A DNA stretch of 64,000 bases from Candidatus Merdivivens pullicola. Its GTDB lineage: Bacteria; Bacteroidota; Bacteroidia; Bacteroidales; UBA932. The notes beneath the pieces were generated by a model that was not told the origin of the DNA, made no database searches, and was given only the letters and a program-made list of their open reading frames with translations. This document shows, piece by piece, positions 1 to 14,118 of the stretch (the first letter of the stretch is position 1; the number at the start of each line of letters is the position of its first letter). The translations under genes were made by a program, and so were the position numbers. Where the stretch lies: contig JADIMA010000040.1 in NCBI GenBank assembly GCA_017694945.1, positions 1-64,000 of the forward strand. The letters are read 5' to 3'.

Positions 1-758
1 TCAATGCCACAAATGGCAAGATTCATTTGTGCCAATTTCCATGTGTTGCTGTTGAGTTCCTGCCCGTAAACAGAAATTTGGTTGATATTACCTCGGTGAC
101 GTTCGATAAACTTACTACTCTGTACAAACATACCTCCCGAACCACAAGCCGGGTCAAAGATTTTTCCTTTGTAGGGTTGAATAACCTCAACAATGGTGCG
201 GACAACACATGATGGAGTGTAGAACTCACCGCCTTTTTTGCCTTCTTCACGAGCGAACTCTCCAAGGAAGTATTCATATACACGCCCGAGCACATCACGG
301 GCCTCTGTTCCTGTGAAATGCAGGTTGTTTTCAAAAATATCAATTACATTGCCCAAGCGGCGTTTGTCGAGTTCTGGACGGGCATAGTTTTTCGGGAGAA
401 TGCTTTTAAGCTGCCTGTTCTCCTGCTCCAACGCTTCCATTGCTGTATCAATGACAACTCCTATTTCAGCAGTAAGCGAAGCCTTGACGATTTTGTCCCA
501 ACGGGAATCTGTAGGAACAAAAAAGATGTTGTCACCGATATACTCATCAGGGTCTTCCTCAAAACCAGCACCCTCTGCTACAAGTTCATCGTGCTTAACT
601 TTGAAGCAATCGTTGATGTATTTTAAGAACACAAGTCCAAGCACTACACTTTTGTATTCGGCAGCATCGAGGTTGCCGCGTAATTCGTTTGCAGAATCCC
701 ACAGAGTTTGCTCGATAGTTTTCTTTGTTCCTTCCTTTGCTTTTACTTTTTTGGCCAT
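1..758 (-). CDS. hsdM: Type I restriction-modification system DNA methyltransferase subunit HsdM (5' part; runs off left edge)
   Basis: Minus-strand reading from ATG at 758: MAKKVKAKEGTKKTIEQTLWDSANELRGNLDAAEYKSVVLGLVFLKYINDCF... and SAM motif region GGEFYTPSCVVRTIVEVIQPYKGKIFDPACGSGGMFVQS, typical of HsdM. Absent from the ORF list because it is open at the edge. Confidence 0.95.
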   Translation of the reverse strand, partial: MAKKVKAKEGTKKTIEQTLWDSANELRGNLDAAEYKSVVLGLVFLKYINDCFKVKHDELVAEGAGFEEDPDEYIGDNIFFVPTDSRWDKIVKASLTAEIGVVIDTAMEALEQENRQLKSILPKNYARPELDKRRLGNVIDIFENNLHFTGTEARDVLGRVYEYFLGEFAREEGKKGGEFYTPSCVVRTIVEVIQPYKGKIFDPACGSGGMFVQSSKFIERHRGNINQISVYGQELNSNTWKLAQMNLAICGI

Positions 759-1080: not shown

Positions 1081-1683
1081 TCATTCTTTTTTATCAGTCC
1101 GCTTCAAATATTCATTAAGAACTTCTCTTGCATAATAATAGCCTCTTTCCTTGAATCTGTTCCATGATATAATCAATAGTACCATCGCAATTGGCCAAAA
1201 CTGCCATTCGTTATAAAAACGAAAAGCACACAGAATGTCTGCAATCAATACAGTTGTAAGCATTGTTCGTGACCAAGCATATTGGGCATTAAAAGCTGGA
1301 ACTCTACAATCTTCACATCCATTGACCTTTCTCATGGCACATCCAAACATTTTCCGTTCAGAGGCATGTTGGTCATTCAATTCTTTTTTCAACGTTACTA
1401 TTGCTTTTTCAGCTTCATAGAATTTAACACGCTTACACCCTGTCCAATTTTGTCCATTCACCAATGTAAGCAGTTTATCTGATGGCATACCATTTATTGT
1501 TTTGTAATAAAAGCCTTCAAGAAGGCTTCCTATAGCATTAATAAAATATCCAGCTAAATAACCTAATGCAAGATATACAACACCATCTATTTCTGTATTT
1601 CCAAGAAAAAGATAATTGATGGCAGCCACAATAGTTACACCGATTATAGTAGTTGATAATAAATCGTAGTATTTTATATCCAT
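1081..1683 (-). CDS. Uncharacterised multi-pass membrane protein (200 aa), apparent partner of upstream MBL-fold gene
   Basis: Hydrophobic segments near the N-terminus (LLSTTIIGVTIVAAINYLFL, VVYLALGYLAGYFINAIGSLL) and C-terminus (TMLTTVLIADILCAF, FWPIAMVLLIISW) flanking a soluble Cys-containing middle; 13 bp from the MBL gene, same strand. Confidence 0.7.
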   Translation of the reverse strand: MDIKYYDLLSTTIIGVTIVAAINYLFLGNTEIDGVVYLALGYLAGYFINAIGSLLEGFYYKTINGMPSDKLLTLVNGQNWTGCKRVKFYEAEKAIVTLKKELNDQHASERKMFGCAMRKVNGCEDCRVPAFNAQYAWSRTMLTTVLIADILCAFRFYNEWQFWPIAMVLLIISWNRFKERGYYYAREVLNEYLKRTDKKE

Positions 1684-1696
1684 AAGTATTTCACCT

Positions 1697-2641
1697 TTAA
1701 ATTGTTAACGTCCCTGCATAATACCAATCTACAATGGGAAATCCATAAACGGTTCGCGTAATATTTCCTTTCCCTTGTTTAGCCTTTAGGCATGTAGGCT
1801 TATTGTTTATTTTATTTTTAGTGTAAATATGCACTTCTTTACCATCATTTTCAAAACATATGTCTCCAGCTGCATTTTGAGTGATAGTCTGCATTGAATC
1901 ACCATAGTCAATATGCTCGGATGGCGCATTACCTATGATGATTAATTTAGGGTTTAATGCCTCTAATAAATCATTAGGAACAGCTCCTGATTTGCGACCA
2001 TGATGTGGCTGAAATAATATGTCTATTAGTGGAATATTATTTTTGTATTCGTCGTAGTATGCTTGTTGCATTTCTGTTTCCAAATCCCCCATCCACATAT
2101 AAGTAGCACCATTTTCTATGCTATATGTAAAAATTGGGCAAATATTATTTATCTCTTTGCCTTCGGAAACAAGTTTAAGTGCCTGCTTAAATTTTTCGTT
2201 TTTTAAATCGGGCCACATAAAATTTATTCCAGAACTCCCATTCTCGTCATTTGTTTCATTGAGCCAAGCACGTCTAATATCACGCTTTATGGCAAAATTT
2301 TTATTAGCAAGTAGCCAATGGTAGCGAGTCAAACTATCATCGCTACTGTCTGTCGGACGATTATTATCTACTGCATAAAAATTTGTAATTTCCCAACTAT
2401 CATCCAAATATTCTATGCCTGCTATATGATCGTTGTCTGGATGTGTTGATATAAAACGACAAACTCTGCCAGCAGACTCATTTTTGATCTCATTTATAAT
2501 TTCATCTTTGCGGGCATTATTCCCATTACCATCTTTCAGATAGCAATCAATAACAGTAAAATTTCGGGAACCATGTTTGATATAGAACATATCCCCTCGA
2601 ATATCTCCCTCTGGGAATGAATAAGACTTTACTATGGGCAT
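1697..2641 (-). CDS. MBL-fold (ComEC-like) metallohydrolase
   Basis: STHPDNDHIAG (HxDxDH), MWMGDLETEM and FQPHHGRKSG motifs, typical of stand-alone ComEC-type metallo-beta-lactamase-fold proteins. Confidence 0.85.
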   Translation of the reverse strand: MPIVKSYSFPEGDIRGDMFYIKHGSRNFTVIDCYLKDGNGNNARKDEIINEIKNESAGRVCRFISTHPDNDHIAGIEYLDDSWEITNFYAVDNNRPTDSSDDSLTRYHWLLANKNFAIKRDIRRAWLNETNDENGSSGINFMWPDLKNEKFKQALKLVSEGKEINNICPIFTYSIENGATYMWMGDLETEMQQAYYDEYKNNIPLIDILFQPHHGRKSGAVPNDLLEALNPKLIIIGNAPSEHIDYGDSMQTITQNAAGDICFENDGKEVHIYTKNKINNKPTCLKAKQGKGNITRTVYGFPIVDWYYAGTLTI

Positions 2642-2907: not shown

Positions 2908-3295
2908 AATAAGTTAAGAATTGGCAAAAATGTCAAATCTCTATCTTTTGGAATGTACCATTGAAAGTTACGACCATATATCAGACTTATTACTTCAAAA
3001 TTATTGAGTAATAACCGATTGTAAATACTAATGATGCTAAGATATAGTTTTTACCTCAAAGCACAAAATGTTTCGTCAAAATTCTCTGTGACTTTTCCGA
3101 AATTCTTTTTCTAAGAGAGATCTTTCCTTATCCCATAGCATTAAAAATATTCACATCAAGACAGACGGTTTTGAGAGCATATAAGCGTAAGTTCTCTGTA
3201 AATAAAGGTTAAATACATTAAATTTTACTTCTTCGGAATGCATGTAGAACCCATAAATTCACTTTTCTACCTTTTTAATAGCAAATTATTGATAA

Positions 3296-3715
3296 TCAAT
3301 GAGTAATAGATTCTGTCATTGAAGTCATGAAAATGAATTCGGATTTGCCGTCTATGCCTTTTCTCCATGGGATTTGAGGTTCCTTGCCTTTCAATAGTTT
3401 GCCATATCTGTCAAGGCATTCAGAATAATGATCTGGCAACCAGTCCATTGCTGCGAGAACTCGGTTAAGCCGTTCTCTCCTTAAATGACTTCTTTCAATA
3501 AGTCTTCTCGTACTTCTGAACTTTGTCCTTTCGGTTGTCTGGGATTTTGTATTGCCTTTGTCGAAATCTCCTAATGTGGCTGCATCCATAGGAATAATTC
3601 TGCTTCCGGTGCATTCTATACCTGTCAATGTGTCTTTATCATTGACATTTTCCTGATTAATTACGGCCCAACCAATGGAATTCGTTCCTAAATCCAGTCC
3701 GAGAATCTTTTTCAT
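3296..3715 (-). pseudogene. cas9: Truncated Cas9 (type II-C-like N-terminus: RuvC-I plus bridge helix only, 139 aa)
   Basis: MKKILGLDLGTNSIGWAVINQEN (RuvC-I), arginine-rich ERTKFRSTRRLIERSHLRRERLNRVL (bridge helix), then KGKEPQIPWRKGIDGKSEFIFM; stop shortly after; no HNH/RuvC-II/III/PI. Confidence 0.9.
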
Positions 3716-3768
3716 GGTAAATGAGATTTGTTAATGTCTCAAAATTATTAAAAAAACTTGAAAAATTT

Positions 3769-3892
3769 TGTTGTTTTGATGAAACATCTTATTTTTGAAC
3801 GAAATTTGAAGCGATTCACAATAAGGATTATTCCGTTGTGAAAACATTTAAAGGGGTGCCTATAGACTTTCTATAGAGCATCCCTTTCTTTT
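3769..3892 (+). ncRNA. Putative tracrRNA locus (anti-repeat, nexus-like hairpin, Rho-independent terminator)
   Basis: Anti-repeat-like TGTTGTTTTGATGAAACATCTTATTTTTGAACGAAATTTGAAGCGATTCACAA; hairpin CACAA-TAAGGATTATTCCG-TTGTG (3817-3840); terminator GGGGTGC-CTATAG-ACTTT-CTATAG-a-GCATCCC + TTTCTTTT; promoter-like TTTG-N19-TATTTTTG at 3767-3797; divergent to cas9. Confidence 0.75.
3853..3892 (+). terminator. Strong hairpin terminator of putative tracrRNA (possibly shared with the convergent sulfatase gene)
   Basis: GGGGTGCCTATAGACTTTCTATAGAGCATCCCTTTCTTTT. Confidence 0.8.
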
Positions 3893-3934
3893 GGAACGCT
3901 TGTTTATCTTGCGTGCCCCGTACTCCCTGCACAG

Positions 3935-5395
3935 TTATTCGCCTTGCAGCAGCGGCCAGGCAGGGTCAGGCACATGTTCCCTCTCCATTATCGAACGCAG
4001 TTCTTCGGCGATCCGGAGGTATTCGTCAGTGACATGTTCTTCGTCGAGCAGGTTGACGGTCTCGGACGGGTCGTTTTCCAAATTGTACAGTTCCCATACC
4101 GATGCTTCTCCGGAAGATGCAAAGAGCCTTATGAGTTTCATGTCTCCAGATATGACGGCCTGTTTGCCGCCTTCTTCCTGGAACTCGAAATAAAGCCAGT
4201 CGTGTTCAGGCTGGCTGCCTTTGCCTGTGAGTGCCGGAAGTATGGACATGCCGTCACCGCCTGAAAAGCGTCCCGTATCAGTGTCCGGCCGGGGCTGCAA
4301 TATCTGTCTGAAAGTCGGAAAAATATCCCAGAAAGTCATCGTGTGCCCGTTCTGGCTGCCGGGTTCAATTACGCCTTCCCATGCGGCTATGAATGGCACC
4401 CTTATTCCGCCTTCGTAAAGGTCTCTCTTGTAGCCCCTGAAGATTCCGTTGCTGTTGAAGAAATCGGGATCGGCGCCGCCTTCCATGTGCGGCCCGTTGT
4501 CACTGGCAAAGATGATCAGAGTGTTGCCGAGTATGCCGTTTTCTTTCAACTTGTCGATTACCTGGCCGACATACATGTCGAGTCTGTAAACCATTGCTGC
4601 AAAAGTCGCGCGTGGTTCCGGTTGCGAACAATATCCGCCTTTACGGAACGCCGGGCCTGAATCACAGCCTTTGTAAGGCGTTTCCGGGTACATCCCGCTG
4701 AATTTGGCCAGAATGGAGTCTTTCGGTACGAGCAGTTCCGCGTGAGGCAGTACATACGGAAGGAAAAGGAAAAATGGTTTGTCTGCATTGTCGTCTATGA
4801 ATTCCAGCGCCTTTTCATTTATCAGATCCTGGGAGTATGTCCCGAATCCTCCGTCGGCATTGTCTTCAAGAATGATTTTCCTATCGTTTTCCCAAAGATG
4901 GTCGGGATAGTAATTGTGTGCGAGTAGCTGACAGTTGTATCCGAAAAATTCGTCAATTCCCTGGTTTGAAGGGTCGCCTGTAGTCCCCGGTGCTCCCAGT
5001 CCCCATTTGCCGAACGCTCCTGTAGCGTATCCGTTTTCTTTGAAAAAGAGGAAAATGTTGTCCATTTCCGGCAGAGGATACTGTCCTTCGGGAGGGGTCT
5101 CGATGTTTCCTCTTACGGGAGCATGCCCTGAATGCAGGCCGGTGAGCAGGCAGGCCCGCGATGGCGCGCTGACAGTTGTTCCGGAATAGCATCTTGTGAA
5201 GCGCATCCCGTGTGCGGCGAGGCTGTCGATGTTGGGAGTGTCGAATTTTTCCTGACCATAGCAGCCGACATCTCCGTACCCGAGGTCGTCGGCAAGGATG
5301 AATACTATGTTTGGAGTGCCCGCCTGTTCCGTCTGGCATCCAGCGACCGCTGTGCAGCCGAGTGCCATGCCCGATATCATCAATCCCTTTTTCAT
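3935..5395 (-). CDS. Sulfatase (arylsulfatase family, Ser-type active site), lipoprotein signal
   Basis: NIVFILADDLGYGDVGCYGQ; active site VSAPSRACLLTG (S-x-P-S-R); lipobox-like CTAVAGC. Confidence 0.95.
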   Translation of the reverse strand: MKKGLMISGMALGCTAVAGCQTEQAGTPNIVFILADDLGYGDVGCYGQEKFDTPNIDSLAAHGMRFTRCYSGTTVSAPSRACLLTGLHSGHAPVRGNIETPPEGQYPLPEMDNIFLFFKENGYATGAFGKWGLGAPGTTGDPSNQGIDEFFGYNCQLLAHNYYPDHLWENDRKIILEDNADGGFGTYSQDLINEKALEFIDDNADKPFFLFLPYVLPHAELLVPKDSILAKFSGMYPETPYKGCDSGPAFRKGGYCSQPEPRATFAAMVYRLDMYVGQVIDKLKENGILGNTLIIFASDNGPHMEGGADPDFFNSNGIFRGYKRDLYEGGIRVPFIAAWEGVIEPGSQNGHTMTFWDIFPTFRQILQPRPDTDTGRFSGGDGMSILPALTGKGSQPEHDWLYFEFQEEGGKQAVISGDMKLIRLFASSGEASVWELYNLENDPSETVNLLDEEHVTDEYLRIAEELRSIMEREHVPDPAWPLLQGE

Positions 5396-13850: not shown

Positions 13851-13911
13851 TATCCTTTTCCCATTCTCCGCAGGAATTCCGAAACCTCATGGTTTGCGGA
13901 TAAAAACATAA

Positions 13912-14100
13912 CGGCAGGTCTCCTGGCTCGTTCCGGCCGCAACGCCTTCCCATTATCCTGTCATTGCTGACATGTTAACAGTGGCAGTCGAATGTGCGGT
14001 CTTGCCCGTTTAATGGCGGAACTTACAGTAGCGGGAACTGCATCCGGTTTTCACGGATTTCCCTTTTATTTTCCTGTCCCGGACGGAACAGGAAAAACCG
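13912..14100 (-). promoter_or_regulatory. Cobalamin riboswitch
   Basis: Minus strand: AAGGGAAATCCGTGAAAACCGGATGCAGTTCCCGCTACTGTAAG ... GAGCCAGGAGACCTGCC, hallmark B12-box/aptamer sequences. Confidence 0.93.
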
Positions 14101-14110
14101 TTACAGTCGG

Positions 14111-14118
14111 CAAAGATA
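14111..14118 (-). promoter_or_regulatory. -7 element TATCTTTG driving riboswitch-btuB transcript
   Basis: CAAAGATA on + strand just upstream of the aptamer. Confidence 0.5.

Follow-up and report, generated by a model that had tools for sequence, protein, structure and literature searches.

A remnant type II-C CRISPR-Cas locus with cas9 broken at a mobile-element terminus beside a complete-looking tracrRNA gene

Degraded CRISPR/Cas9 loci are known from Mollicutes, and in Mycoplasma cynos the CRISPR/Cas9 locus of one strain corresponds to a type III restriction-modification (R-M) system in another (PMC6882279). Among small RNAs, the RNA anti-CRISPRs (Racr) are repeat mimics that block a Cas system which is present (PMC10651486), and work on scaRNAs deals with CRISPR-associated RNAs of genomes that have type II systems (PMC6199352, PMC13431127). 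A literature search on orphan tracrRNAs found no direct study, and an earlier description may exist. The locus analysed here lies in a window of 64,000 nucleotides, bases 1-64000 of contig C26, from a draft genome of 1.89 Mb in 87 contigs that is 93.7% complete and that, judged by its relatives, belongs to a gut-type family of the Bacteroidales kind. It is read, with a probability of roughly 0.83, as a remnant type II-C locus in a slot of defence turnover, where cas9 was split by a mobile element and the tracrRNA was spared.

The truncated cas9 (3299..3715, minus strand) retains Cas9-homologous codons 1 to about 135, roughly a tenth of the gene, after which the frame runs through a handful of foreign codons to a stop at 3296-3298. 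Its product of 139 residues comprises the RuvC-I start and the arginine-rich bridge helix and matches Pfam Cas9-BH with 35.6 bits against a cut-off of 26.3. The match to TIGR01865 covers positions 2-67, within the first 67 of 1070, and scores 62.5 bits, below the cut-off of 100 as expected because the query is only a fragment. The reference used throughout is the congener G002, which carries on contig C9 an intact cas9 followed by cas1, cas2 and an array with a 48-nt repeat, and to which the cas9/tracrRNA region of the window is 78.5% alignable. Over the first 137 residues of the 1501-aa G002 Cas9 the fragment shows 74% identity, and both proteins start at the same residue. The sequence-only reading was thus right in calling the 139-aa ORF a Cas9 N-terminus, and mistaken in ending it right after EFIFM, as ten further residues follow and codon alignment puts the end of Cas9 homology at codon 135, bases 3311-3313.

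Synonymous sites between the fragment and the G002 gene are near saturation (dN 0.16, dS about 1.6). A fragment released from constraint long ago would be expected to have gathered additional amino-acid changes. With four outgroups, the amino-acid changes in the fragment against those in the intact G002 Cas9 were 5 v 11, 7 v 9, 9 v 7 and 3 v 6, giving no excess of protein change in the fragment, in a test that is weak because it rests on about 130 codons. Since no such excess is seen, the cas9 break looks recent, and the label 'fossil' given earlier overstates the age of a fragment that has undergone no accelerated protein change relative to the intact Cas9.

The break itself coincides with foreign sequence. 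A mobile-element terminus of a type here called class B occupies 3197..3311 with 73-74% identity to its relatives, and its end GAGTAATAGAT (3301-3311) directly abuts cas9 codon 135, so that homology to the element ends at 3311, exactly where Cas9 homology stops (3311-3313). The stretch 3197-3314 aligns over 118 bases with a conjugative plasmid of B. xylanisolvens (NZ_CP045613.1; 73%, E 4e-8), and the terminus is 74% identical to the faecal viral-type contig MT836633.1. These two copies are alike up to ...AATAGAT (...AATAATAGAT) and wholly different beyond, while in the window GAGTAATAGAT is followed by cas9. A related terminus, class A, is found at 2912..3028 and has 74% identity to a stretch of MT839915.1 that neighbours hsdM and a tyrosine recombinase. 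Its identity is 77-78% to stretches near cfxA on plasmids of B. thetaiotaomicron and B. fragilis, two copies that match each other as far as ...GTAAATAC and no further. The cfxA-bearing element is presumably Tn4555-like. The termini are thus kept across unrelated insertion sites and diverge at a fixed point, the pattern by which an integrative element is recognised. To the left of the class A terminus lie, all on the minus strand, an MBL-fold protein gene of the PADLOC candidate defence family PDC-M48B (1697..2641; 1.6e-99), a hydrophobic protein with no family matches (1081..1683) and hsdM of a type I R-M system (3..758), interrupted by the contig start. The PDC-M48B gene adjoins the hydrophobic protein, which is small, and hsdM. 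Since the contig ends inside hsdM at position 1, the window side of the element shows no integrase, and neither the far end of the element nor the rest of cas9 was found in the assembly, in which one junction is seen.

A false join at 3311 that makes a whole cas9 look cut was weighed against this evidence. The assembly is a draft of many contigs, and a junction-spanning 35-mer is absent from IMG/VR, which leaves the join without an independent copy. The terminal segment is single-copy in the assembly and hence not a repeat that causes mis-joins, the rest of cas9 is on no other contig, and the join falls exactly at the element terminus, all of which makes an assembly artefact very unlikely.

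On the right the locus is bounded by a sulfatase gene (3935..5395, minus strand), the first gene of a block that is syntenic in both congeners G001 and G002, and the edge of a variable slot whose left side differs in each genome. The slot holds a C5 methyltransferase and an MvaI/BcnI-type endonuclease, a type II R-M system, in G001, no recognised defence genes in G002, which has its CRISPR locus on a different contig, and the cas9/tracrRNA relic with the type I R-M system in the window. As the content left of the sulfatase differs among the three, the slot is, by this gene-order comparison, a site of defence-gene turnover. With an element terminus abutting cas9 and an R-M system in the slot of a congener, a mobile element is the most likely cause of the split in cas9, and this cause is the new point beyond the earlier reading.

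The missing parts of the system were sought in the whole assembly. The G002 residues beyond the fragment gave no matches at E = 1, in a search that had no positive control of its own, although the 139-aa query found its target in the same assembly. There was no Cas1 match, no match to the G002 repeat at up to three mismatches, no set of three GTTGTGA copies at CRISPR spacing and no second Cas9. Accordingly, none of the parts of a functional type II-C system, namely a Cas9 with full RuvC and HNH, cas1 and a repeat-matched array, was detected. The proposal that effector and adaptation genes were lost from the locus is borne out by these searches, and the suggested genome-wide check for an intact cas9 and a GTTGTGA-type array found neither in the 93.7% complete assembly. 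They also bear on the idea that the window tracrRNA has as its partner a Cas9 encoded by another locus in the cell. Such an arrangement has a parallel in G042, where tracrRNA and cas9 are on different contigs and no tracrRNA occurs within 450 bp upstream of cas9. In the window's own assembly neither a second Cas9 nor a Cas9 C-terminal part, Cas1 or matching repeats were present, so a partner elsewhere in this genome is unsupported and highly improbable.

The tracrRNA gene is divergent from cas9. Its body (3796..3897, plus strand) consists of an anti-repeat, a CACAA/TTGTG hairpin, a tail, a terminator stem and a T-rich tract, and it is preceded by a predicted Bacteroidota-type promoter, TTTG-N19-TATTTTTG (3766..3796, plus strand), whose spacing had been given correctly before and whose TAnnTTTG box is found at the same place in relatives. 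The anti-repeat (about 3798..3822, plus strand) forms a duplex of -26.7 kcal/mol with the 5' half of the G002 repeat, compared with a mean of -6.3 and a best value of -17.7 for 500 shuffles. Similarity to a related type II-C repeat, proposed earlier as a check, is thereby confirmed; the anti-repeat placed at 3769-3822 is present as well, with a span that had taken in the promoter, the anti-repeat proper being at about 3798-3821. The 24-base core CACAATAAGGATTATTCCGTTGTG (3817..3840, plus strand) is nearly invariant in the family. When 450 bases upstream of cas9 were extracted from each of 29 Cas9 loci, the window's own left out, the tracrRNA was found to adjoin cas9 in 26. About 55 nt from the anti-repeat to the terminator start (AATTTGAAGCG...AAAGGGGTG) are identical between the window and G002, and the RNA folds at -33.3 kcal/mol (z = -5.2) with a hairpin and a strong terminator. 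Together with the core in the surveyed loci, these values leave the divergent tracrRNA proposed earlier as real. An anti-repeat complementary to the type II repeat of a congener, with hairpin and terminator downstream, is what characterises a type II tracrRNA, and with promoter-like boxes, fold and pairing all present there is no sequence sign of a broken RNA. Bases 3796-3897 are hence, to judge by sequence, a complete-looking type II-C tracrRNA gene, which is probably still transcribed without a Cas9 or crRNA partner. A scan of the window with Rfam at gathering cut-offs gave a single match, a cobalamin riboswitch (RF00174) at 13896-14117 on the minus strand with 94.9 bits.

The proposed history would start from an ordinary Bacteroidales type II-C CRISPR-Cas locus, into whose cas9 a mobile element, apparently of a type known to bring restriction genes along, probably integrated at about codon 135. 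The remaining cas9, cas1, cas2 and the array would have been lost from the locus, as their absence from the assembly suggests, and the slot would have come to hold mobile-element ends, a candidate defence gene and a type I R-M system. The divergent tracrRNA gene, being upstream of the break, would have survived untouched. This order of events, like the integration as its cause, is probable.

Solitary tracrRNAs were also found elsewhere in the family. With up to three mismatches allowed, 50 of the 200 genomes of the family carry the 24-base core: 55 copies are perfect, four have one mismatch, none has two and two have three. The reversed pattern used as control gave one match. By a hand count based on positions and the lengths of the contigs, some 14 copies lack a Cas9 in reach though the contig goes on at that side, and for most solitary copies a Cas9 is found elsewhere in the genome. 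In four species of another genus, g15, a solitary tracrRNA lies just upstream of tRNA-Leu(TAA) (L089/G105, L093/G051, L084/G016 and L095/G141, with 24-mer starts at 1122, 302, 5798 and 190), conserved from promoter box to terminator, divergent farther upstream and with no adjoining Cas9, the contig of the G016 copy ending 250 bp past the tracrRNA on the Cas9 side. G158 (L120, C17:48043-48066), a 98% complete genome without Cas9 or Cas1 matches, has a solitary tracrRNA whose core is perfect and which includes promoter and anti-repeat. In three species of one genus (L121, L122 and L096 in G122, G056 and G177) the core is upstream of a gene that is adenylosuccinate-lyase-like by reading of its translation, and the G056 copy is a decayed orthologue of the intact one in G122, with its anti-repeat gone and hairpin and terminator mostly left. 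An all-against-all comparison of flanking proteins found no gene family shared beside solitary tracrRNAs across genera, the few matches linking loci from one genome or from genomes that are related.

Some further loci deserve mention in their own right. In G007 (L081, contig C2, 24-mer at 4705-4728 of the locus) a tracrRNA-like tail with one mismatch follows an apparent single II-C repeat (ttgtgaattgcattcaattttg...agacaac); this genome, 99% complete, gave no Cas9 or Cas1 matches. Locus L092 (G144:C297, 2518-4962) has tracrRNA, cas1, cas2 and repeats, and in the place of cas9 it encodes a 259-aa protein whose start is C2H2-like (CPFCGKTFAKAGINRHLITH) and which matches no Pfam family. An intergenic element near the integrase of Riemerella phage PJR4 (L116, PQ820060.1:43183-43221), also seen in PJL1 and PJX6, is 87% identical to the tracrRNA core over 39 nt and is possibly a phage-borne tracrRNA mimic. 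The hosts of these phages are known for type II-C systems. Cut Cas9 matches in G022, G055, G021, G027, G044, G074, G016 and G084 were weighed as possible parallels and set aside, those checked being near contig ends and uninformative, such as the G044 match at position 3 of its contig.

Selection for another function was considered at two levels. For the window, selection would have kept the tracrRNA, alone or together with the 139-aa fragment, in a regulatory or other non-defence role once Cas9 was gone. The roughly 55 nt shared with G002 are identical although the neighbouring cas9 fragment has a dS of about 1.6, and solitary perfect-core tracrRNAs recur in the family, some in genomes without Cas9 or Cas1 matches (G158 and G038, and G007 with one mismatch). 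However, as the break looks recent, conservation of the tracrRNA can predate it, the Cas9 encoded elsewhere in most relatives with solitary copies may be served in trans, the G056 copy, in a genome without Cas9 or Cas1 matches, has lost its anti-repeat, and no targets were identified. After a recent break an intact tracrRNA is expected by inheritance and does not point to a new role; the repurposed regulator suggested earlier, having no positive evidence, is quite improbable. At the level of the family, solitary tracrRNAs would be kept as stand-alone RNAs after loss of Cas9, with the window freshly orphaned and the copies at tRNA-Leu in g15, in G158 and in G007 selected for a role that needs no resident Cas9, a reading that is unlikely. 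On the simplest reading, the solitary copies serve a Cas9 in trans in certain species, and other species show decay or deletion; a role of their own is possible but unsupported. Their recurrence is nevertheless more interesting than the window locus, and with solitary tracrRNAs at fixed places it becomes testable whether tracrRNAs outlast Cas9 for a reason.

For the window the preferred reading is still a remnant split by a mobile element, and it means that an immune system can be turned off in one step when an element enters the effector gene and the guide-RNA partner stays complete. A tracrRNA in a genome is no proof of a working Cas9.

Compared with the intact Bacteroidales type II-C system of G002, the window has the same Cas9 family, the same divergent tracrRNA and an anti-repeat fitting the 48-nt repeat, and lacks Cas9 past codon 135 or so, Cas1, Cas2 and the array. 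With Bacteroides integrative elements (the cfxA element, NZ_CP103154.1 and CP103278.1, and the hsdM/tyrosine-recombinase cluster, MT839915.1) it has in common a terminus of about 117 bp, 73-78% identical, whose copies diverge at one fixed point; unlike them it shows this terminus without integrase or far end, as the contig ends. Racr and scaRNA-type regulators are, like the window RNA, small RNAs from CRISPR parts acting outside arrays, whereas in the window genome no Cas9 was detected with or against which such an RNA could act. The degraded CRISPR/Cas9 loci of Mollicutes resemble the window in their inactivated Cas9, leftover parts and R-M at the site, and differ in that their changes include frameshifts and replacement of the whole locus (PMC6882279), while in the window the break is at an element terminus and the tracrRNA is complete. 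The locus is an ordinary degraded type II-C system and a further example of its kind, with an unusually clear cause.
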